Of a stretch of DNA of 22,407 nt, positions 3,775 to 22,395 are shown one piece after another. The translations under genes and the position numbers were made by a program. How positions within the stretch are numbered: the stretch's first letter is position 1; every line of letters begins with the position of its first letter. The stretch is from a virus: IMG/VR virus record IMGVR_UViG_3300027782_000393, positions 1-22,407 of that record. One strand, given 5' to 3'. Under the pieces are notes generated by a model, which was given only the letters and a program-made list of their open reading frames with translations, did no database searches and had not been told where the DNA came from.

Positions 3775-6700
3775 ATGCCAACTATCCGCGTTAATATTCC
3801 ATCTAGAAATCAAACGATTGAATTTGATGAAGGAACTCCTGAGAGCGTAATTCAAGAGGTGATTAAACGCGACTTCCCAAGGAATGGGAGCGACGTTGCT
3901 TATGAAGTAAACGCTGATCCTGCGTTTTCTAAATCAATCTCAAACGAAGACTTTGGTCTGTATGAGGGATTCTTAGATAACAAGAAAACAGACTTGGTTA
4001 ACACCGCAGCAAGTGCTGTCGGCTACCTTGCGTCCACCGTTGGTGCTGGCATCAAGGGTCTGTTTGAGGCGCGGAACTTAAATCCAGAGGTTGCCGCTGC
4101 TACCGCCATTGAGTCGGGCGCACAAGGCACGCGGGATCTCTATGGAATGCTGGCACAGTCAGAAGATCCGAGCAGCATATTCTTTAAGTTTAAGGACTTT
4201 ATAAACGGGACCGGAACCGTAGAGGATCGCAAGAAGCAGTGGCTTGAGGCCAGAGACTTTTCTGAGAACACGCGCAAGATGGAGGCCGGCCAGCAGACCG
4301 TGTCTGGCATTGATCCATCACTGATTAATAACGACGTAAAGAATGCGCTAAAGTTAATTGCTGATCCTACACTATTTATTCCTGGCATCGGAGAGGCAAT
4401 GGGCGCGGGTAAGCTCGGTGCGCGTGTAACGGGTGCCGCTATGGAGGTCGCTGGACGCACCGCGCAAGCTATCACAAGGCCTTTGGTTGACATTGTAGAC
4501 GCATCTACCCGCATTGCCGGCGAAGCCTTTGGAGCTAACGCAAACGCCGTTAAGGGGCTTGCGGCTGGATCTGGTGCCACCGGCGTTGTAATGGGCGTCC
4601 CGGGCGTCCGCGAGGCCGCGATAGCTTACGGTACAGTCGAAGGTGTCAACAAGGCCGGCCAGGTGCTTGAAACCGCCGGGCAGGCTCTTGGACGCACGCC
4701 GACACGCATTGGTGCGCTTGAGTCACTTGCGCTCAATCCTAATGCAAGCGCAGTCGACCGCGCACTGGCGAAGGTTGGCCGTTACGGTGGCGACGACCTA
4801 ATTGACATTGGTGCGCGATCCATTGCCGGTGCAGTCGAGGGTGCCGCTATTGGCACAACGCTGGGCTACCTATCTGGTGGCGAGGAAGGTGCCGCGGGTG
4901 GATTTGGCACAGGCGGATTACTAGGCGGCGCAGGCGCAGGCGCGGCACGTCTATACGGCAAAGCCAGCGGTGCAGCGGCCATCGAGAATCGTCACGGTGA
5001 CTTTAATCGTTTCTATGAGACGCTAGATCCTGAGACTCAGGCCAAGTTTGACACGATTGTTAAGAAATCTGGTCTAGACGGCGCAAGTCAGGTCATGGAC
5101 ATCGCAGGCTTAGTTCGTGGCAAATTTAATGATGCCGACGTAAGATTTTCTACCGGTGAAGAATTTGCTAAGAATCACGGTGTTGATGCAAGGGGCATAC
5201 ACTTTCCAGAAGGAGACCGACCCGTCATTGATATCAACGTAGACAAGTTCAGCAGTCAGCTAACGGCTGGCCATGAGTTGTTCCACGCATTTAAGGCAAT
5301 CGACCAACTCCGCCCAATGGCCGAGAAGGTTGAGAGCATGATCGTTGGTAACTACATCATAGATGGCAACGGTCAGTCTGTAAAAACATCACCAGGCATT
5401 CTTAGTGAGGCGGATGTCTTAAAGCGGTTTGATGAGTATCTCAGCAAATTTAACGATAAGGACGGCAATACAACTCTTCCAGAAAACGATAAGTTTATAA
5501 AAGCAAATACCTTGCTTGAGAAAACAAAGTTAGTGGGGGAGGAACTTGGCGCCGAGTACATGAATCGAATGATTGCTGGAAGCAACACCGACTCCATGCT
5601 GCGCGGGTTTGATGATCTTACTCGCACGCTTTTAGATAACGCCCTTCTGTCGGACACCGAAGGATTTTTACGTCGCACCGCACAAAGCATCGGACTTGGC
5701 AGTAAGCCAATTGAGTCATTGATTTTTGCTAAATTAGAGAATGCATCGCCGGCACTCAATGCTGCGCTTCGTGACATGGTTCGCGCCCGGCGCAACATGA
5801 GCAAAAGAGTGGAAATGACAGAAGGCAGCGGTTATTTAATTTCAAGAAAAGATTTGTCGAACCCAATTGCCGCCAAGATGGCCATTGATATGGGCATCGC
5901 AGAAACGTCACCCGATGGCGTTGTGCGCATGAGATCCAATGACATTATTGCAAAAGAAGATACTGCCAGTTTAGCCGCACTTGTTAATGCCATCAAATCA
6001 GCACCAGTTATCGACGCTTCCGAGCCTCGTTTGCGTGAGGTTGACGGAAAGATTGTTGGGAACGGAATCAGCAATGCTCAACTAGCCGCAATTCAAACAT
6101 CACCGATCATTAATGATAAAGTAAAGCAAGGCATCTCAATTGTTAAGGATGCTATGGAAAATGGTAATGTAATTTTTATTCGCAATGGAAAGGCAACCAA
6201 AGAAATTAAAAGCCCTTTAACAGGGAAGAAATTAAAACGATACGAAAATGGTTTTCGCATGACCGAGCGCGACATTGCGCCTTTTGCGTTAAACACTAGT
6301 GAAACTGGAAATATATACATTGCGACATTTGATATTTCTAAGGCACGCAATGAAGCCATAAAATTAGCCGGCCGCGACAATCTTGGCCCATATGGAGCAG
6401 ATTTTCAGACGTTCTACGGTGACCTGACACGCTACCTAAACAATCTTTCTGATCGCGAGAACAGGGTTCCAACCAAGGAACTGCTTGGCGATGCTGCTAA
6501 GGCTGCATACTTAACTGAATTTTTTGGTGGCAAGGACGGCACATCCGCCAAGTACATCCGCAACTTTACGTTGGATCGTATGGTAGATATGCGCTTAACC
6601 GGCGAGAAGGTTAGTATGTCTCAGACGGCGTATGATCTTAATAAAATCGGCTTCATGCCTGCCGAGAATATAGGTGACGGCAAGGTGTTCAACTCACCTG

Positions 6701-8712
6701 ACAGCGGCTTTACAATTATATCTAAGAACGCCGGCAAGCACAGCCTGTACGCTCCCACCGGAGAACGTGTCGGCATCTACGACACGCAGGCCAAGGCCGA
6801 GGCTGTAGCAAATAAAAAGGCTAATCCCCGTGTTTCAGATGCCGACATTATTGAACCAGTAATCAATCCAGATCATACGGTTTCACCAGGAGCACCAGCT
6901 CCCGATTCTCCTATTCGTGATATTCCAACAAGCGGTCCAGAAATTAGCTGGATGGATTCTGAAATAAATTATCAGCCAAATGTGTTGCCTGAAGTTTTTC
7001 CAGATATGACGCCAGAGTTACTTTCTGAACTTGAGCGAATTTCGCCTACAATAGCAGCAATTCATATCGACCGTATGCGCGTTGGATCATACAAGGGAAT
7101 TGATCTTCAAGGCGGTTTCTTTTATCCAGCAATTGTAGATAATTTAAAAAAAGGAATTGTATGGGCATTTAATAGTGCTGGCACAGCACGAGGTGTTTCA
7201 AAGCGAGCTTCAGCCAATGGTGGACTAGTAAAATTAGTGCTTATGCAAGAAGGTAATGTTATTGGAAATAAAACATTTGCTCGTATTTGGTTTCACGATC
7301 TTCAAGAAAACATTGCCTCTGGTAAAATAAGCAAAAGCGATGCATTAGTTGAATTGAACGCAATTCGCAAACGTCACGCCGAACTTACTGGTGATGAAAT
7401 TGCTTCTATTAAAGCAGCCAAAATTGAAGGGAAAAATAAAAAACCACGCAAGGTAACGGGACACACTAAAGAGTGGACTAGCCTTAATGAAGCAGAACGA
7501 GCCATCACTGATATTGCACAGCAAACACGGGGAAGCACTTATTTCCAAAAAAATGCTGATAAAGAAATAATTTCATATCAGTCGCTCCTTTCTCAAAAGA
7601 TGACAAAAATGGGTTTTCCAGATGCCGTCCAGATCGTGCGCGACATTGAAGAACCTGCATTTAAAAATGTACCAAGAGGTGCCGTGGTTGGTATTTTAAA
7701 ATTTGATTCAGTGGCACAAGGTGAAAAAATTAAAACTGCGAAAGAAGCGGGGGTTCCAGAGCATTACAGCTACGGTTATGTGTTACATGGAAAACCAATA
7801 GCAAAAATAAGGAATTTTAAAATTATAGACGAAGCGTTCCCAGCTACACGCAATAGAATGCTTACTCAACAAAACGTAAATTTCCCAGTTCGTGAGTCCA
7901 TTCCTTCAAGAATTTCCGAATCGCATGGAACGGTTAATTTCATGCCAGAAACTCGCGTCAGTGGCCAACAGGGTTCGGACACAACCCAAATTGCAACAAC
8001 CGTCAAAACATACGGAAAAGCAGCCGGGCTGTTTCCAAAGAATACTCGCATCCTAGACGTTGGAGCGGGACTTGGTTTGGGCGCAGACGAGATGCGCAAA
8101 AGTGGTCACTCGGTTGACACGGTCGAGCCACTGTCTGCAAGGTGGTCCAGCTCTACTCCGCGCACATTTGAGACAATAGATCAGGCCACAGAAAAGTATC
8201 CAGGCATCGTAAACTTCTCGGTACTCAATGTAGTCGAACCAAAGTTGCGTGATCAAATTGTTGATGGAATTGGTCAGCGTATGGCAGATGGCGGCACAGC
8301 ATACATCACCGCTCGCACACGCTCTGATGTGGAGGGCGCAAAGAACAAGCGTCCAGCTAACGAGGCCGGTGGCTACTGGATCAAGAAGAGCGGCGGAGAT
8401 GTGTACCAGAAGGGATTCTCTACTCCCGAGCTTGTTGGATACGTCCAGACACGTCTTGGAGATCAATTCAAAGTGAAGCCTGCGTCTGGTCTTAGCGGCG
8501 CGGCCATCGAGATTAAAAAGTTTATGCCGGCGATCAAGTTCTCCGCTCCAGAAAACCTACCGAACGGAAAGGTATGGCGTGGCGAGAATGGGTATGCTAT
8601 CATGCAAAAAGAAGGCGGGAAATTCCGCGTACATTCACCCATCGGCTTAATCGGAATCGCCGCCTCTTATGAGGCCGCGGAGAAGATGGCCAGCAAACGT
8701 AACAATAAATGA
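3775..8712 (+). CDS. Giant polyvalent protein: HExxH metallopeptidase motif, glycine-rich membrane-like segments, C-terminal SAM methyltransferase
   Basis: This 1645-residue protein has the hallmarks of phage polyvalent proteins, which are carried in the virion and ejected into the host. Residues 1-60 form a small domain with an FDEGTPESVIQEV segment. Residues ~240-400 hold Gly/Ala-rich hydrophobic stretches that could form a channel. The zinc-metallopeptidase motif H500-E-L-F-H504 follows (GHELFHAF). A central region of unrecognised domains runs from ~640 to ~1380. Residues 1426-1432 (ILDVGAG) are motif I of a class I SAM methyltransferase, with an acidic residue after the second strand (VDTVEPLSARW). 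A domain at residues ~960-1016 recurs at the C terminus, 1583-1645. It follows two other probable ejection proteins and overlaps the holin-like gene by ATGA. Peptidase and methyltransferase folds are well supported by motif; substrates are unknown. Confidence 0.85.
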   Translation: MPTIRVNIPSRNQTIEFDEGTPESVIQEVIKRDFPRNGSDVAYEVNADPAFSKSISNEDFGLYEGFLDNKKTDLVNTAASAVGYLASTVGAGIKGLFEARNLNPEVAAATAIESGAQGTRDLYGMLAQSEDPSSIFFKFKDFINGTGTVEDRKKQWLEARDFSENTRKMEAGQQTVSGIDPSLINNDVKNALKLIADPTLFIPGIGEAMGAGKLGARVTGAAMEVAGRTAQAITRPLVDIVDASTRIAGEAFGANANAVKGLAAGSGATGVVMGVPGVREAAIAYGTVEGVNKAGQVLETAGQALGRTPTRIGALESLALNPNASAVDRALAKVGRYGGDDLIDIGARSIAGAVEGAAIGTTLGYLSGGEEGAAGGFGTGGLLGGAGAGAARLYGKASGAAAIENRHGDFNRFYETLDPETQAKFDTIVKKSGLDGASQVMDIAGLVRGKFNDADVRFSTGEEFAKNHGVDARGIHFPEGDRPVIDINVDKFSSQLTAGHELFHAFKAIDQLRPMAEKVESMIVGNYIIDGNGQSVKTSPGILSEADVLKRFDEYLSKFNDKDGNTTLPENDKFIKANTLLEKTKLVGEELGAEYMNRMIAGSNTDSMLRGFDDLTRTLLDNALLSDTEGFLRRTAQSIGLGSKPIESLIFAKLENASPALNAALRDMVRARRNMSKRVEMTEGSGYLISRKDLSNPIAAKMAIDMGIAETSPDGVVRMRSNDIIAKEDTASLAALVNAIKSAPVIDASEPRLREVDGKIVGNGISNAQLAAIQTSPIINDKVKQGISIVKDAMENGNVIFIRNGKATKEIKSPLTGKKLKRYENGFRMTERDIAPFALNTSETGNIYIATFDISKARNEAIKLAGRDNLGPYGADFQTFYGDLTRYLNNLSDRENRVPTKELLGDAAKAAYLTEFFGGKDGTSAKYIRNFTLDRMVDMRLTGEKVSMSQTAYDLNKIGFMPAENIGDGKVFNSPDSGFTIISKNAGKHSLYAPTGERVGIYDTQAKAEAVANKKANPRVSDADIIEPVINPDHTVSPGAPAPDSPIRDIPTSGPEISWMDSEINYQPNVLPEVFPDMTPELLSELERISPTIAAIHIDRMRVGSYKGIDLQGGFFYPAIVDNLKKGIVWAFNSAGTARGVSKRASANGGLVKLVLMQEGNVIGNKTFARIWFHDLQENIASGKISKSDALVELNAIRKRHAELTGDEIASIKAAKIEGKNKKPRKVTGHTKEWTSLNEAERAITDIAQQTRGSTYFQKNADKEIISYQSLLSQKMTKMGFPDAVQIVRDIEEPAFKNVPRGAVVGILKFDSVAQGEKIKTAKEAGVPEHYSYGYVLHGKPIAKIRNFKIIDEAFPATRNRMLTQQNVNFPVRESIPSRISESHGTVNFMPETRVSGQQGSDTTQIATTVKTYGKAAGLFPKNTRILDVGAGLGLGADEMRKSGHSVDTVEPLSARWSSSTPRTFETIDQATEKYPGIVNFSVLNVVEPKLRDQIVDGIGQRMADGGTAYITARTRSDVEGAKNKRPANEAGGYWIKKSGGDVYQKGFSTPELVGYVQTRLGDQFKVKPASGLSGAAIEIKKFMPAIKFSAPENLPNGKVWRGENGYAIMQKEGGKFRVHSPIGLIGIAASYEAAEKMASKRNNK
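6652..6822 (+). repeat. First copy of duplicated FMP-led domain in the giant protein
   Basis: Residues 960-1016 of the giant protein begin FMPAEN and contain GKVFNSPDSGFTIISK, a segment around SLYAPTGERVGIYDT, and a helix AKAEAVANKKA. The C-terminal 63 residues (8521-8709) follow the same order: FMP, GKVWRGENGYAIMQK, FRVHSPIGLIGIAA, then the helix YEAAEKMASKR. The identity is at protein level only, so this is an old internal duplication of a small beta-beta-alpha-like module. Confidence 0.65.
8521..8709 (+). repeat. Second copy of the FMP-led domain at the C terminus of the giant protein
   Basis: Residues 1583-1645 repeat the FMP start, the GKVW/GKVF strand, the HSPIGLIGI/APTGERVGI strand and the closing Ala/Lys helix of the copy at 6652-6822. 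It comes directly after the methyltransferase domain. Confidence 0.6.
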
Positions 8713-9122
8713 ACCTCGTAGACGCCCTATTCAATGCCGCTGGCGGCGGGATCTTCGGATCTGCCCTCCACTGTTTTACTGACTGGCTAGGCACGAAGAA
8801 CAAGATCGCTTTGATGAATGCGCAGGTCAACGCGGCAGAGAAGACTGAGGCTTGGCGTTCCTTTACGGAGTCGCAGAAGGATGCCCCCGCGCTGCAAATC
8901 CCAGCATCTGCCCCCGGCTGGATCGCTGGCGCCTACCTTCTTGTCGATGGCATCAAGCAGCTCACTAGGCCACTCCTGACATGGGCAGCTGTTGCGATGA
9001 TCGTAACGGTTTATCTAAATTCTACGGTTGAGAAGCAGGGTGAGATATCATCCGAGATTTTATTCGGCTCATTTACGGCAGTCTTCTGGTACTTCGGAGC
9101 GCGTTATAATAAGTCCAAGTGA
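8709..9122 (+). CDS. Holin-like small membrane protein
   Basis: The 137-residue protein has an N-terminal Gly/Ala-rich helix (residues ~5-20). A soluble charged region with Gln/Lys/Glu follows (~28-60). Then come hydrophobic segments at about 68-80 (WIAGAYLLVDGI), 85-103 (PLLTWAAVAMIVTVYL) and 114-131 (ILFGSFTAVFWYFGARY), and a basic tail. The RPLLTW turn and the FGAR end resemble the three-transmembrane holins of phages and gene-transfer agents. It starts in an ATGA overlap with the giant protein and ends in a GTGA overlap with the phosphoesterase, so it is translated with late genes. A lysozyme gene lies about 1.6 kb downstream. A holin is the best guess; a membrane anchor for virion assembly is possible. 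Confidence 0.6.
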   Translation: MNLVDALFNAAGGGIFGSALHCFTDWLGTKNKIALMNAQVNAAEKTEAWRSFTESQKDAPALQIPASAPGWIAGAYLLVDGIKQLTRPLLTWAAVAMIVTVYLNSTVEKQGEISSEILFGSFTAVFWYFGARYNKSK

Positions 9123-9988
9123 AGACCACTGGACTTTTCACGACGCACCGCGTTGAGATCGTCGCCAAGCTAGGCGAACCAATTAAATTTATTCCGTTCG
9201 GTGACATCCACCGAGACAGTGATATGTTTGCGCACGATCACTGGGAAAGGTTTCTGGTCCACGCAAAAAAACAGAAGAAGGCAATTTTCTTGGGTATGGG
9301 AGACTACACCGACGGCGTCTCAACCAGCGAGCGCATCGTATTAAGCAACTCTGGTATGCACGACACCACCACGAACACGCTCAAGGACGTCTACAAGGGC
9401 GTGGCCCGCACGCTGCACAACGAACTGTCATTCATGAAGGGCAAGCTGATCGGTATGCTTGGCGGCAACCACTACTTTGACTTTGGGAATGGAGACACGA
9501 CAGACCACGTTTTAGCTGCATCGCTAGGCTGTAAATTTCTAGGCGTGTGTTCGTTCATCCGACTTTCTTTTCGGTTTGAGAACAAGGAAGGATCACGCGC
9601 ATCATTGGACATATTCGCGCATCACGGCAAGGGCGGAGGGTCCACACCTGGGGGCCAATTTAACACTATTGAAAAGATGTCTACCACCGCGGATGCGGAC
9701 TTTTACCTCATGGGCCACACCCACGGCAAGGGCTGCCTGCCCAGCACGCCGCGCCTGACCCTGTCATCTACCGGAAAGTCCGCCGAGCTATGCGTCAAAG
9801 AGCGCACTCCTTGGCTAGGCAGAACAGGCTCATTTCTAAAGGCTTACGAGAATAACAAGGTCAGCTACAATGTGGATGCTGGCCGTTCGCCGGCGTCGTT
9901 AGGGTGGATCGAGTTTGAGATCACTCCGGTGCGTAACCGTAAAGATGGTCAGGACGTGATTGAGTTCGAGATCAGAGGTACAGCATAA
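9119..9988 (+). CDS. Calcineurin-like metallophosphoesterase
   Basis: All signature blocks of the calcineurin-like metallophosphoesterase fold are present in order: D29-x-H31 (GDIH), G61-D62 (GMGD), G116-N117-H118 (GGNH), H168-H169 (AHHG) and G199-H200-T-H202 (GHTH). These coordinate a two-metal centre that cleaves phosphomono- or phosphodiesters. The start is GTG, set by the GTGA overlap with the holin-like gene's stop. At 289 residues it is about the size of single-domain phage phosphoesterases. The substrate is unknown. DNA or nucleotide phosphoesters, or a cyclic-nucleotide signal, are possible, as phage enzymes of this fold vary. It ends the left operon, and the next 92 bases hold a putative promoter and hairpin. 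Confidence 0.9.
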   Translation: MKTTGLFTTHRVEIVAKLGEPIKFIPFGDIHRDSDMFAHDHWERFLVHAKKQKKAIFLGMGDYTDGVSTSERIVLSNSGMHDTTTNTLKDVYKGVARTLHNELSFMKGKLIGMLGGNHYFDFGNGDTTDHVLAASLGCKFLGVCSFIRLSFRFENKEGSRASLDIFAHHGKGGGSTPGGQFNTIEKMSTTADADFYLMGHTHGKGCLPSTPRLTLSSTGKSAELCVKERTPWLGRTGSFLKAYENNKVSYNVDAGRSPASLGWIEFEITPVRNRKDGQDVIEFEIRGTA

Positions 9989-10221: not shown

Positions 10222-10444
10222 TTCCATGAAAAACGTATCAACTCCATCTCTTGAGGAAATTGAAATAATGCTATCGGCTGCAATATATTGGCTTAACGCC
10301 GAACCGGATGAAGATCATCATAATCCAAAACGAGATTCTAAAGAATGTTTGAATGATGCTTATGCCGCCATTGTAAGCATGATCGAAAAGCAGAAAGGTA
10401 AATTTAAAACCAATAAAGTCTCACATTCAAAATTTGCATTATGA
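10211..10444 (+). CDS. Small acidic unknown phage protein
   Basis: About 77 residues from the ATG at 10211, or 72 from the ATG at 10226. I prefer 10211 because it overlaps the preceding stop, the usual arrangement here, but both are plausible. The core is helical (LEEIEIMLSAAIYWLNAE). An acidic/His stretch (DEDHH) follows, then a second helix with DAYAAIVSMIEKQKGK, and a basic tail. The helix-acidic loop-helix pattern resembles small phage regulatory or inhibitor proteins, but no family can be named. It ends in an ATGA-less junction, with the next ATG starting at 10441 inside the last codons. Confidence 0.5.
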   Translation: MKTNSMKNVSTPSLEEIEIMLSAAIYWLNAEPDEDHHNPKRDSKECLNDAYAAIVSMIEKQKGKFKTNKVSHSKFAL

Positions 10445-10707
10445 AAATAACACCAACATTTAGTCTAGGTCAGTCCGTATGTTCCGCACCTAATTCTGGT
10501 GACGTTGAATTAATGCGTATGAAGTGGCACGCGGTGGTGACTGAAGTTAGAGAGTGCAAAACAACCACACCAGATGGTTACTGTTATGTCACCGTTGGTT
10601 TTTGGGATACAGAGAAGCGCAGCAAGCGTGCTACGCTTCGGCAATTGTGGAGCAACCACCTTGTACTTGATACTTCGGATAAAGCAATGCCTGCACTTCA
10701 ATCATGA
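10441..10707 (+). CDS. Small unknown protein, probably beta-rich
   Basis: The 88-residue protein starts MKITPTFSLGQSVCSAP. It alternates hydrophobic and polar residues (WHAVVTEVRECK, YCYVTVGFW) as in a small beta-barrel, and then has basic RSKRATLRQLW. The GQSV-x(n)-WHAVVTEV layout recalls small SH3-like domains, but this is a guess. It overlaps the preceding gene and couples to the lysozyme gene by an ATGA overlap at 10704, so all three belong to one transcript. No function is assigned. Confidence 0.55.
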   Translation: MKITPTFSLGQSVCSAPNSGDVELMRMKWHAVVTEVRECKTTTPDGYCYVTVGFWDTEKRSKRATLRQLWSNHLVLDTSDKAMPALQS

Positions 10708-11117
10708 AATCTTTATTTTTATCTTTAGCAATCGCGGTGACCGCGCACGCCGCTCCGCCAGAAAAGTTCTGGGGTGCGCTTCATCAAATTGAAACTGGCG
10801 GCGCACTCGGCGCCATCAAGGGCGATTACGTCAATTCCCAGCCACGGGCCTTGGGGCCGTACCAAATTCATCGTTTGTACTGGATTGATAGTGCTGTGCT
10901 TGGACGGTTTGAAGACTGCCAAGACTTAAGTTATAGTCGCAAGGTGGTCACCGCGTATCTGCAACGCTACGCACCCAAGGCTTGGTCTGCCGGTGAGTCT
11001 GGGTGCGAGGTGCTATTTAGGACGCATAATGGCGGACCCGCCGCCATGCGTGCAACTGGCACGACAAAGAAAAATCTCGACCGCTACTCCAAAAAGGCAT
11101 TGGGTCTGATGAAATGA
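10704..11117 (+). CDS. Secreted lysozyme/endolysin resembling invertebrate-type (i-type) lysozymes
   Basis: The 137-residue protein begins with a classic signal peptide: MK, then a hydrophobic LFLSLAIAV core, then AHA with cleavage expected near residue 16. The mature part has a probable catalytic Glu30 (HQIETGG), with Asp41 eleven residues on. A LGPYQIHRLYWID block, FEDC, a VVTAYLQRYAP helix and RTHNGGP follow. The order E-S/T-G-G, D, GPFQI-xx-YWxD, EDC, Y-xx-RY, HNGGP matches that of i-type (destabilase) lysozymes, which cut peptidoglycan between MurNAc and GlcNAc. Only two cysteines (FEDC, GCEV) remain, against many in animal homologues. It overlaps neighbours by ATGA on both sides. With the holin-like protein it should form the lysis pair. 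It could instead be called a transglycosylase-like endolysin. Confidence 0.75.
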   Translation: MKSLFLSLAIAVTAHAAPPEKFWGALHQIETGGALGAIKGDYVNSQPRALGPYQIHRLYWIDSAVLGRFEDCQDLSYSRKVVTAYLQRYAPKAWSAGESGCEVLFRTHNGGPAAMRATGTTKKNLDRYSKKALGLMK

Positions 11118-11584
11118 AGATAACGATTGCCATCGACCCCGGCGTATCGGGCGGAATCGCGTGGAACAAGGACGGCCAGATTGGGACCTGTCCCATGCCA
11201 GAAGCGCAGCCAGAGCTAGTAGAATTCTTTGGCCTACTCATTGCCGGTACGGTCAACCCAGTTGCGTGGATCGAGGACGTGCCAAAGTTTGTCGGCAAGA
11301 TGATTCCAAGCAGCACCACGGCAGTTTTGTTTTTCAACGTCGGCTACGTCGAGGGCGTGCTGGCGGCCAAGGGTGTTCGCATCGTCCGCGTCAGACCTCA
11401 CGACTGGCAGAAGCATTTCCGTTTAGGCACAAAGAAAGATTGCAGCGGCACCACCGAGTGGAAAAACAAATTAAAGAGCGAGGCTATCCGTCGCTACCCA
11501 TCGCAGAAGGTCACGCTGGCAACAGCCGACGCACTACTCATTTTAGATTACGCACAAGAGAAGGGGCTGGCACCCAGTAACTGA
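11114..11584 (+). CDS. RuvC-like Holliday-junction resolvase
   Basis: This is an RNase H-fold nuclease of 156 residues, close to the size of RuvC. Visible are the first-strand Asp8 (IAIDPGVSGGIA), the second acidic residue Glu54 at the end of a strand (WIEDVP), and the C-terminal helix with Asp139 (TADALLIL). RuvC enzymes usually carry two acidic residues in that last helix, spaced D-x-x-D. Here the first position appears to be Ala136, and Asp145 lies further on. This is a feature to check rather than proof of inactivity. It should cut branched phage DNA before packaging or during recombination, next to the RecT/RecE-like genes that follow. Start set by ATGA overlap with the lysozyme stop. 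Confidence 0.8.
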   Translation: MKITIAIDPGVSGGIAWNKDGQIGTCPMPEAQPELVEFFGLLIAGTVNPVAWIEDVPKFVGKMIPSSTTAVLFFNVGYVEGVLAAKGVRIVRVRPHDWQKHFRLGTKKDCSGTTEWKNKLKSEAIRRYPSQKVTLATADALLILDYAQEKGLAPSN

Positions 11585-13702: not shown

Positions 13703-15082
13703 ATGACATGGATACTCCCCAAACAATTACACACGTTAGTCTCTGCGCTGGATACGGAGGCATTGATCTCGGACTTAAACGAGCAATCCCAGATCTGCGC
13801 ACAATCGCTTTTAGCGAGATCGAAGGTTACGCCTGCGCGAACTTGGTCGCTAAAATGGAAGCGGGACTCTTGGATGCAGCACCTATCTGGACGAATCTTA
13901 AGACCTTCCCTTGGTCAGAGTTTCGTGGAAAGGTGGACATCCTCTCTGGCGGATATCCTTGTCAGCCATTCTCAGCAGCCGGCAAGCGACTCGGAACAGA
14001 AGACCCCAGACACTTGTGGCCCTTCATCGCAGATGGAATTAGAGTCATGCAGCCCAGACTTTGCTTCTTTGAGAACGTCGAAGGACACATCAGTCTTGGA
14101 CTGCGAGCAGTCATTGAAGAACTGGGAAGCCTCGGTTATGAAACGACGTGGGGAATATTCTCAGCGCGTGAAGTTGGCGCACCTCACCAACGAAAGCGGG
14201 CGTTCATCCTGGCCCACCGCAAATGCGCGAGACTGGAAGGATGGATCAGCGGAATGCAATCAGAGAGCAATGGATGCGGGACACCAAGTAACATTAGCGA
14301 GAGCAGCAACTTGTTGGTCAACTCCATCTACAATGATGGGAGCGATGTATGCGGAGTCGAACATGGAAAAACGAAACAGTCCATCACTAGCATCTCAAGT
14401 GGTAATGTGGCCGACTCCAACAACAGCGGAAGCGGGCAAGATCAGTTGTTGTCCGAATTACGGACAATTGGGATTGAGCAATCATCCAGATGTTCACGGT
14501 TACCAAGTCAATCGACCAAAACTAGAGAAATCACGGTCTGGTCAAGCCGCCCCGGCGAACCCCAGCACGCATGGGAACCGCCAAGAGTCGTGGGAAACCC
14601 CAACGGTATCAACTGGAGCGCATCAGCAAGCAGACGGATCAATGACGCCGAAGCTCGATCAGCAAGTGAAGCAGTGGGCAACGCCAAACACGATGGATCA
14701 CATGGAGCCGAGACCAGTAGAAGCAATGAAGCGAATGCTGGATCATGGTCAAAGGAAGAATCGCAAGTGGTCGAGCAATGTAAGGGAGCAAGTGGTCTGG
14801 GATCAGAAATACGCAGCATCCTGGGCAACGCCGAAAGCCAGCGATCCTCAACACAGCGGCCCAAATATGAGGGACTCAGCGGGGAATTATGCTTTGCCAG
14901 CGCAAGCAGTGAGGGCATCGTTAGCGACAGGCAAGCTGAACCCTCGCTGGGTCGAGACGCTGATGGGTCTGCCAGTGGGCTGGACTATGCCAAGCTGTGC
15001 GTCTCCAGTGACAATCGCACCGACGAACTGCGACTACTCGGAAACGGAGTCGTCCCAGCTACCGCAACCAGAGCTTTTTTAA
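13703..15082 (+). CDS. Overlapping frame B: W-x-T-P repeat protein inside the methyltransferase gene
   Basis: This 459-residue frame starts at an ATG five bases before the methylase ATG (ATGACATG) and stays open throughout. Its N-terminal half is Ser/Gln/Lys-rich with no motif. From residue 170 it has six W-x-T-P repeats (Trp170, 205, 236, 297, 325, 374), the first being SWPTANARDWKDG. It ends with LNPRWVETLMGLPVGWT at 412-428. I recall W-P-T-P-x-A-x-D and LNPxWVExxMGxPxGWT blocks from phage proteins near or within cytosine methyltransferases, sometimes in the same frame as motif X; this needs a search. The frame could be a real overlapping gene, a source of target-recognition segments reached by frameshift, or a passenger of the other frame. 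Low GC-independent chance of staying open argues against pure accident. Confidence 0.5.
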   Translation: MTWILPKQLHTLVSALDTEALISDLNEQSQICAQSLLARSKVTPARTWSLKWKRDSWMQHLSGRILRPSLGQSFVERWTSSLADILVSHSQQPASDSEQKTPDTCGPSSQMELESCSPDFASLRTSKDTSVLDCEQSLKNWEASVMKRRGEYSQRVKLAHLTNESGRSSWPTANARDWKDGSAECNQRAMDAGHQVTLARAATCWSTPSTMMGAMYAESNMEKRNSPSLASQVVMWPTPTTAEAGKISCCPNYGQLGLSNHPDVHGYQVNRPKLEKSRSGQAAPANPSTHGNRQESWETPTVSTGAHQQADGSMTPKLDQQVKQWATPNTMDHMEPRPVEAMKRMLDHGQRKNRKWSSNVREQVVWDQKYAASWATPKASDPQHSGPNMRDSAGNYALPAQAVRASLATGKLNPRWVETLMGLPVGWTMPSCASPVTIAPTNCDYSETESSQLPQPELF

Positions 15083-15114
15083 CTTTGCTCCACGAACTTA
15101 TGGAGTCGAAATGA
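13708..15114 (+). CDS. C5-cytosine DNA methyltransferase (frame A of a dual-frame locus)
   Basis: The 468-residue protein carries the catalytic motifs of Dcm-type enzymes in order. Motif I is SLCAGYGGIDLGL (residues 11-23). Motif IV is PCQPFS with catalytic Cys85. Motif VI is ENV at 122-124. Motif VIII is QRKR at 161-164. Motif X is GNGVVPATATRAF starting at Gly445. The stretch between VIII and X, where target recognition lies, is a Ser/Gly/Asn-rich text with repeats such as VADSNNSG, VGNPNG, VGNAKHDG and LGNAES. It would methylate cytosine in phage or host DNA, probably to evade restriction. A second long frame covers 13703-15082 over the same DNA. The stop overlaps the next gene by ATGA. 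Enzyme identity is confident; activity of the recognition region is less so. Confidence 0.85.
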   Translation: MDTPQTITHVSLCAGYGGIDLGLKRAIPDLRTIAFSEIEGYACANLVAKMEAGLLDAAPIWTNLKTFPWSEFRGKVDILSGGYPCQPFSAAGKRLGTEDPRHLWPFIADGIRVMQPRLCFFENVEGHISLGLRAVIEELGSLGYETTWGIFSAREVGAPHQRKRAFILAHRKCARLEGWISGMQSESNGCGTPSNISESSNLLVNSIYNDGSDVCGVEHGKTKQSITSISSGNVADSNNSGSGQDQLLSELRTIGIEQSSRCSRLPSQSTKTREITVWSSRPGEPQHAWEPPRVVGNPNGINWSASASRRINDAEARSASEAVGNAKHDGSHGAETSRSNEANAGSWSKEESQVVEQCKGASGLGSEIRSILGNAESQRSSTQRPKYEGLSGELCFASASSEGIVSDRQAEPSLGRDADGSASGLDYAKLCVSSDNRTDELRLLGNGVVPATATRAFLTLLHELMESK

Positions 15115-21589: not shown

Positions 21590-21618
21590 TTGCGCCAAAA
21601 ACTACGCTCTGGTATAAG
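21590..21618 (+). promoter_or_regulatory. Candidate promoter of the terminase-type gene
   Basis: TATAAG (21613-21618, five of six) is 17 bases from a weak -35 TTGCGC (21590-21595). Transcription would start near 21625, at the putative TTG start 21626. It lies back to back with the minus promoter in a compact divergent control region. Confidence 0.4.
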
Positions 21619-21625
21619 CAGACCA

Positions 21626-22159
21626 TTGGAGATCACGGCACAAGTTACCACAACCTCCCCTGAGCTGACCACCGTCACCCAGAAGCTGGCGCGTGGATCA
21701 GACCTCGGCAACTTTACCGCTAGACAGATCAGTACGGAAAAGCGTACGCTTATCGAGGAAATGATCCGCAAGCAGGTGCCAATTGCTCGCATCGCTTTTG
21801 ATACTAGCTCAAGCAAATCTACCGTGCAGATCGTCCGGGATCAGCTCATCGAACGCGAGCCAACACTGTTCCGCGGCCACATGGCTGCCAACCTCCAGCG
21901 CATCGCAAACAAGGCCGCCTCAACCATTGAGCAAGGTCTTGATGCCCTCGAAGGACAAGATGTTAAACCAAGTTTACTAGCGGGAATTTCCGTCGCGCTA
22001 GGGATTATACTTGATAAACAGTCTGCGATGCTCGGTGAAACCACGGTCCAGGTGGTTGAACACCGGCTCCGGGTCGATGCGGACGCCATTTCCCGCATGA
22101 TATCCGTCAAACCATTACAAGTTGTTACAGAGCAGGAGGATATCATCGATGTTGCGTAG
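21626..22159 (+). CDS. HTH protein, candidate small terminase subunit
   Basis: About 178 residues from TTG 21626. An upstream TTG at 21590 overlaps the putative -35 box, and the first ATG (21762) would remove a well-formed N terminus. A helix KRTLIEEMIRKQ and an HTH-like IARIAFDTSSSKSTVQIVRDQL follow, then long helices (NLQRIANKAASTIEQGLDAL, LAGISVALGIILDKQSAML) and an acidic C terminus. HTH-plus-helical architecture, with a place before presumed packaging genes and next to a GC-rich island, fits a small terminase subunit. That subunit binds the packaging site and stimulates the large subunit. I recall IALGILxDKxxxLxGE-type text in such proteins. A transcription regulator is the alternative. 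Confidence 0.5.
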   Translation: MEITAQVTTTSPELTTVTQKLARGSDLGNFTARQISTEKRTLIEEMIRKQVPIARIAFDTSSSKSTVQIVRDQLIEREPTLFRGHMAANLQRIANKAASTIEQGLDALEGQDVKPSLLAGISVALGIILDKQSAMLGETTVQVVEHRLRVDADAISRMISVKPLQVVTEQEDIIDVA

Positions 22160-22319: not shown

Positions 22320-22395
22320 GCCTTCTTAGCTCAGTTGGTAGAGCACCTGTTTTGTAAACAGGCGGTCACAGGTTCGAGTCCTGTCGAAGGCTCCA
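22320..22395 (+). tRNA. tRNA-Thr (anticodon UGU), CCA encoded
   Basis: A full cloverleaf is visible. The D arm is GCTCAGTTGGTAGAGC. The anticodon stem is CCTGT/ACAGG around TTTGTAA, giving anticodon UGU for Thr codon ACA. The variable loop is CGGTC, the T arm ACAGG-TTCGAGT-CCTGT. The acceptor stem GCCTTC/GAAGGC has one mismatch at its last pair (T/C), then discriminator T and CCA. Total 76 bases. It sits just after the GC-rich island at the window end. It may be a phage-borne tRNA serving codon usage, or mark an integration-type site. Confidence 0.93.

Follow-up and report, generated by a model that had tools for sequence, protein, structure and literature searches.

The i-type lysozymes, Pfam family Destabilase (PF05497), are usually described as animal enzymes. 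The 2023 structure paper on leech destabilase reports 14 cysteines, all of them in disulphides, and a muramidase dyad formed by Glu34 and Asp46; the same work used PF05497 and left out one branch in which bacterial and viral metagenomic sequences fall together with several others (PMC10126035). In PhaLP 2.0, 'destabilase' is found among the miscellaneous domains of predicted lysins with the statement that such domains destabilise the cell wall (PMC13237592), which is an annotation misreading of a lysozyme family. The word destabilase is absent from the main text of two large viral lysin surveys (PMC12596118, PMC5968864).

The closest described phage proteins are Calle_1 gene 55, annotated 'lysozyme (Destabilise-like protein)', and phi40:1 gp032, both from Cellulophaga phages whose host is a flavobacterium. 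They resemble the proteins described here in being phage-encoded, in having a signal-like N-terminus and in the order E-D-QI-HNGG, and differ in that GILQI replaces GPYQI, YW is missing and Pfam yields only a sub-threshold SLT match. In the paper on phage Calle, the potential endolysin named by the authors is an amidase (PMC8776804); the Calle genome carries the Destabilase-like gene in addition to this separate amidase. With a phage 'Destabilase' in UniProt, the Calle_1 annotation and the branch set aside in 2023, the family is not wholly new. Among the matches listed from the open-licence literature we found no study dedicated to phage members of the i-type/Destabilase family, and among those listed for Planctomycetes with phage, endolysin or lysozyme no title on such phages. 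Likewise, our literature search found no earlier description of how large the family is, of its host pattern or of the mosaic alleles seen here.

The lysozyme gene and its predicted fold

We analysed a window of 22,407 nucleotides, a 22.4-kb virus record (IMG/VR IMGVR_UViG_3300027782_000393) with most genes on the plus strand. The open reading frame at 10704-11117 shares an ATGA overlap with both neighbouring genes and had been predicted to encode a phage endolysin with the motif order of animal i-type lysozymes. Its features are:

10704..11117, plus strand: i-type (Destabilase-family) lysozyme gene, ATG to TGA, 137 aa
10704..10754, plus strand: predicted signal-peptide-like N-terminus, aa 1-17, MKSLFLSLAIAVTAHAA; 12-aa hydrophobicity 2.17, low pLDDT
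10791..10793, plus strand: Glu30, catalytic acid by alignment (equivalent to leech Glu34); E in 55/55 aligned viral sequences
10824..10826, plus strand: Asp41, second catalytic carboxylate by alignment (equivalent to leech Asp46); D in 50/55 aligned viral sequences
10854..10868, plus strand: GPYQI core motif, from sequence and alignments
10878-10889, plus strand: YWID, after GPYQI with HRL in between
11025..11039, plus strand: HNGGP motif, His108 aligned with the His of leech HNGGP; H in 55/55 of alignment A2, partly by selection

Every motif named in the original prediction is found, and in the order given: ETGG, Asp41, GPYQI, YWID, EDC (Cys72), YLQRY and HNGGP. The predicted spacing of GPYQI and YWID needs one correction, as HRL, a spacer of three residues instead of two, separates them. 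Cysteine occurs just twice, at Cys72 and Cys101, as predicted.

The window protein is a member of the Destabilase/i-type lysozyme family. The Pfam Destabilase model matches it with an E-value of 7.3e-8 (33.1 bits, curated cut-off 26.2) over aa 49-125, a span that leaves Glu30 and Asp41 outside; these two residues are aligned via structure comparison and via the profile of 55 viral sequences that we call A2. A phmmer search of solved structures returned leech destabilase at E 1.3e-8 and clam i-type lysozymes at 7.1e-7 and 1.9e-6, the sole other match up to E 10 being a ribosomal protein at 1.4. The A2 profile matches solved i-type lysozymes over the whole domain (E 6e-27 to 7e-21); its match to leech destabilase (E 6e-27) covers the whole domain including Glu and Asp and takes in the C-terminal T-x2-YW-x-KV stretch. 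All 55 A2 sequences match Pfam Destabilase at E <= 0.01. Judged by these sequence comparisons the match of 10704-11117 to the i-type family is far above chance, and the proposed relationship is supported by Pfam, phmmer, the A2 profile and the fold comparison alike. Searches with the window lysozyme gave no match in PHROGs and nothing meaningful in NCBIfam. A weak match of the A2 profile to c-type lysozymes (best E 0.002) was set aside, designed armadillo proteins reaching 0.005.

The AlphaFold2 model of the window lysozyme has a mean pLDDT of 90.4 and a pTM of 0.83 and is poor only in about the first 20 residues (pLDDT 53 for residues 1-10 and 76 for 11-20). With this model Foldseek gives i-type structures the first six places in the PDB (E 2.3e-4 to 9.3e-4), and the next match is the mannanase RmMan134A at 0.037. 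A second structure comparison (VIA) likewise places five i-type structures at the top, with Z of 13.6-14.6 and rmsd of 2.4-2.6 over 108-111 residues; leech and clam i-type lysozymes rank best. The closest named viral model is UniProt A0A6J5P067, 'Destabilase' of an uncultured Caudovirales phage, at rank 3 behind two unnamed entries. It is a phage protein like ours, with a TM-score of 0.71 to the model, and differs in sequence (33 % identity); the entry is known by name, without a stated function.

One alternative is that the protein is an ordinary SLT-type lytic transglycosylase resembling i-type lysozymes by chance. SLT enzymes (PF01464; Cj0843, MltC, MltE, Slt70) have a lysozyme-like fold in common with the window protein at Z of about 9-11, the best SLT structure reaching Z 11.2 with rmsd 3.0 over 112 residues. 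In addition, 7 of the 55 A2 sequences also match Pfam SLT at E <= 0.01, and the Cellulophaga and Microcystis phage relatives match only SLT in Pfam, the former below threshold and the latter above the cut-off. Nevertheless, i-type structures lead the best SLT structure by 2.4-3.4 Z units and have a higher identity to the window protein (22-27 % versus 8-20 % for the other rows shown), the window protein has no SLT match in a Pfam scan up to E 1, and Asp is kept at the second catalytic position of i-type lysozymes. To our knowledge, SLT transglycosylases have neither HNGGP nor the second carboxylate. In these model-based comparisons the gap between the two groups is modest, the fold being common to both, but the ranking is clear: the best structural match is i-type, not a plain SLT enzyme devoid of i-type similarity. 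We consider an SLT identity very improbable.

Viral and bacterial members of the family

Four close relatives in IMG/VR (L001-L004), 74-83 % identical to the window lysozyme and 78-84 % when measured in the alignment, keep the reading frame. Glu30, Asp41, GPYQI and HNGGP show no variation across all five sequences, and YWID is replaced by YFKD in three of the four relatives. The five phages are 95-98 % identical in the flanking genes (9119-9988 and 11114-11584). Within the lysozyme gene, L001 is the near match in columns 200-300 of the DNA alignment (95 % identity, against 56-69 % for the other three relatives), and L002 is the near match in columns 300-400 (91 %, against 45-53 % for the others). 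This mosaic pattern suggests recombination within the lysozyme gene.

To extend this set, IMG/VR was searched with a DNA pattern for GP[YF]QI-x3-YW, giving at least 120 stretches. Among the matches listed, 111 of 120 are family members by the motif test; the other nine comprise one repeat of the L002 contig (L033) and eight stretches that are chance, incomplete or not accepted by the motif test. Together with L001-L004 the viral set amounts to at least 115 members in 51 clusters at 65 % identity. Alignment A2 consists of the window sequence, L001-L004 and 50 other cluster representatives. The selection on GPYQI-x3-YW and an HN-like motif means that conservation of those motifs in A2 is partly built in; the catalytic Glu (55/55) and Asp (50/55) had no part in the selection. 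A genome scan with the five-sequence alignment A1, whose patterns are narrow, returned 63 stretches and no relatives among them.

The viral branch is large and diverse and has few disulphides or none, which makes it a natural comparison for how far the i-type fold and activity need them. It is also a candidate source of animal i-type genes and a bridge to SLT transglycosylases, and it points to a lysis enzyme of Planctomycetota and Verrucomicrobiota phages.

Among isolated phages, tblastn returned nothing below E 4 for the window protein and nothing below 0.1 for member L047; member L024 retrieved relatives in seven Cellulophaga phage records and in one Microcystis phage. The phi40:1 protein matches A2 with 99.2 % probability in a profile comparison, and its phmmer matches to leech and clam lysozymes lie at 0.008-0.07. 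The Cellulophaga phage forms look like intermediates between SLT and i-type enzymes.

The pattern GP[YF]QI-x3-YW-x-D was also searched in bacteria, taking one genome per species (84,980 species), and found 40 stretches, all 40 family members as read. The titles name Planctomycetota or Verrucomicrobiota for 36 of them and just 'bacterium' for the remaining four. HNGG is present in 37/40; L151 reads HTGG, L155 has a broken C-terminal part and L145 ends with the fetched DNA. Pfam Destabilase was confirmed in 14/14 bacterial genomes tried. Sampling around G002 (L141, Planctomycetota) and G001 (L133, titled Akkermansia) with the Pfam model gave matches in 3/294 and 3/288 genomes of the respective phyla, centre genomes counted, and in 0/14 control genomes; the lysozyme gene is therefore rare in bacteria.

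Many Planctomycetota loci (L132-L169) have a chromosomal form with, frequently, a hydrophobic N-terminus and a DGDGGxAIGPYQIH motif. Common neighbours occur there at steady distances, for example a thioredoxin/peroxiredoxin-like ORF (as read) in 12 loci, in a count that takes ORFs from stop to stop, so that some common 'neighbours' are shadow frames. Part of the bacterial set looks resident in the chromosome, to judge from these loci.

In a tree with cysteines masked, the window lysozyme falls in a set of 15 rows (support 97/90) comprising the window, L001-L004, L119, four other viral rows, four Planctomycetota-titled rows and one untitled bacterium. We infer the host of the window phage from these kin of its lysozyme. 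A host assignment via the complete tRNA-Thr at the right end of the window was uninformative: its best match in the Verrucomicrobiota sample is 88 % identical, and in the Planctomycetota sample the best matches, covering all or part of the tRNA, reach 86-89 %. The position of this tRNA is:

22320-22395, right end of the window: tRNA-Thr (TGT), complete

It is preceded by an ORF at 21590-22159 that by guess might encode a small terminase, without family support.

Relation to the animal enzymes

The animal i-type lysozymes of Hirudo medicinalis (8BBU), Tapes japonica (2DQA) and Meretrix lusoria (3AB6) match the window lysozyme in fold (Z 13.6-14.6) and have in common with it the catalytic Glu and Asp, G[PY][YF]QI-x3-YWID and HNGGP. 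The two differ in sequence (22-27 % identity), in the length of the loop after the Asp and in cysteine content, with two cysteines in the window lysozyme compared with 14 reported for leech destabilase in PMC10126035. By our reading of the alignment, the position of leech Ser51 is Ala in the window lysozyme, and A (29) or S (20) in the 55 A2 sequences.

With its two cysteines the window lysozyme falls outside the disulphide-rich animal subgroup, which is marked by high cysteine content. Both Cys72 and Cys101 align with animal cysteines; they are conserved in 40/55 and 5/55 of the A2 sequences, respectively. Viral domains contain 0-5 cysteines (115 members, among the matches listed). In 6 of 155 viral and bacterial members the catalytic Glu is flanked by cysteines in the arrangement C-x2-E[STC]-x-C, which animals also have.

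A pattern with Cys before G retrieved two viral stretches, of which L170 appears to be a chance match. The other is a 459-aa ORF on a viral contig (L171:12605-13984, minus strand), very rich in cysteine and with CLRC, SCGPYQIQKRYW and ARIHNGG. Pfam does not recognise this ORF; the stretch resembles the disulphide-rich animal i-type lysozymes.

In a 97-row tree with cysteines counted (L155 dropped), leech and clam stand beside the viral members L046, L076 and L092 with support 87/77, on a branch of 2.3 changes per column and with the animal composition flagged. Once cysteines are masked this grouping is lost: the animals stand apart from all microbial rows in a 74-row tree (100/99; bootstrap unsettled, 26/39 bacterial rows dropped) and in a 38-row tree of hand-chosen rows (99/97). 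We therefore dropped the nesting of animals in the viral clade, which is seen only while cysteines are counted. In the masked 38-row set, a constraint that joins the animals to the viral cysteine clade of six members is neither favoured nor rejected (p-AU 0.188). These trees include three animal sequences, all leech or clam; 4PJ2, from the same clam as 3AB6, was left out.

The shared sequence spans the whole domain, which argues against a convergent origin. With the animal-viral grouping lost under masking and the constraint at a p-AU of 0.188, the trees favour neither direction of transfer. It is conceivable, if rather doubtful, that animal i-type lysozymes descend from a cysteine-poor enzyme of the phage/Planctomycetota type that was passed to an early animal lineage and then gained disulphides. 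The viral C-x2-ES-x-C subgroup would in that case be the nearest surviving kin.

Genome context, predicted export and probable role in lysis

The genes of the window run in the order large unnamed ORFs, candidate holin, nuclease, small ORFs, lysozyme, resolvase, RecT, exonuclease VIII, SSB, methyltransferase, helicase and primase. The lysozyme gene adjoins the resolvase and RecT and does not lie within a compact lysis cassette. The genes that bear on its context are:

8709..9122, plus strand: candidate holin, 137 aa, one clear hydrophobic segment (aa 89-107); PHROG 6637 (unknown function) E 1.8e-7
10441..10707, plus strand: upstream neighbour, 88 aa, without assigned function; no Pfam or PHROG match
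11114..11584, plus strand: downstream neighbour, Holliday junction resolvase; phrog_1770 E 1.3e-17

Among the four relatives the upstream neighbour is present in L004 only (97 %). In the 31-kb L002 record a terminase scores 29.5 bits in Pfam (cut-off 22) and has a PHROG match at 1e-15. The portal of that record falls just short in Pfam (SU10_portal, 29.6 bits, cut-off 30) and matches a PHROG portal at 1.2e-6. The window phage is therefore likely tailed and perhaps podovirus-like. No second peptidoglycan hydrolase was found among 20 window proteins scanned with Pfam, 19 scanned with PHROGs and 10 proteins of the L002 relative.

The ORF at 8709-9122, without a significant Pfam match, is the sole holin candidate and lies about 1.6 kb upstream of the lysozyme. 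It is 97 % identical in L004 and only 39 % in L002 and L003, where the genes on either side exceed 94 %, which marks it as a second exchanged gene near the lysozyme. Across the family, 50 loci were tried and the lysozyme was called in 34 and uncalled in 16. Small membrane ORFs, 16 in total and several on the opposite strand, lie within three ORFs of the lysozyme in just 14 of the 34 callable loci, leaving a holin cassette unsupported as a family trait.

The claim of a signal peptide holds to the extent that a signal-peptide-like N-terminus is seen on a simple hydrophobicity scale, with cleavage inferred near AHA/HAA. By the same rule, with every start codon tried and six-frame ORFs taken rather than called genes, 89/113 viral members among the matches listed have such an N-terminus, compared with 32/704 control ORFs (other ORFs of at least 200 residues in viral loci). 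A clear signal stretch is lacking in 24/113 viral members and two further members have no start; among bacterial members, 29/40 have a hydrophobic N-terminus.

Taken together, we think it probable that the window protein is a Sec-exported i-type muramidase acting as the endolysin of this phage. Of this model, the analysis shows the protein's family, its predicted fold and conserved catalytic residues, the phage setting and the hydrophobic N-terminus. The lysozyme would be produced during late infection, cross the inner membrane through the host Sec system and be released by signal peptidase. It would then cut the peptidoglycan beta-1,4 bond, with Glu30 as the acid and Asp41 as the second carboxylate, and the phage would burst its host via this exported endolysin. 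Depolarisation or a holin could trigger lysis, and a holin may serve only as the trigger, as originally proposed. Points that speak against this reading are the candidate status of the holin and the irregular presence of small membrane ORFs near the lysozyme, the position of the gene next to the resolvase and RecT, the amidase named as the potential endolysin of phage Calle, and the 24 viral members that lack a clear signal stretch.

Alternatively, the protein may be a SAR-type endolysin, in which the N-terminal segment stays uncleaved and tethers an inactive enzyme to the membrane until depolarisation sets it free. The short Ala/Ser-containing hydrophobic segment, ending about 13 residues before the catalytic Glu, would suit this mode; we regard it as unlikely, the segment ending in an AHA/HAA context that resembles a signal peptidase site. 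A lysozyme with a role other than lysis, such as action against competing phage or bacteria, by killing or exclusion, or help with DNA entry as a part of the virion, would be in keeping with a gene placed between structural-type and recombination genes, with the family-like gene beside a separate amidase in Cellulophaga phage Calle, and with relatives that lie in long open frames (L086 with 704 and L013 with 456 codons, stop to stop). An export signal would however be unexpected in a virion protein that assembles in the cytoplasm, and no other lysin is found among the scanned proteins of the window phage or its L002 relative, so that such a role appears distinctly unlikely.

Elsewhere in the window, at 13703-15114, two ORFs of 459 and 468 aa occupy nearly the same stretch in different frames, the second being a C5 cytosine methyltransferase; this segment is absent at the corresponding place in all four relatives. 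A 1645-aa ORF at 3775-8712 might, by guess, be a large virion protein or a polyprotein; close to its C-terminus, aa 1417-1523 form a methyltransferase-like domain that scores just below the Pfam cut-off.
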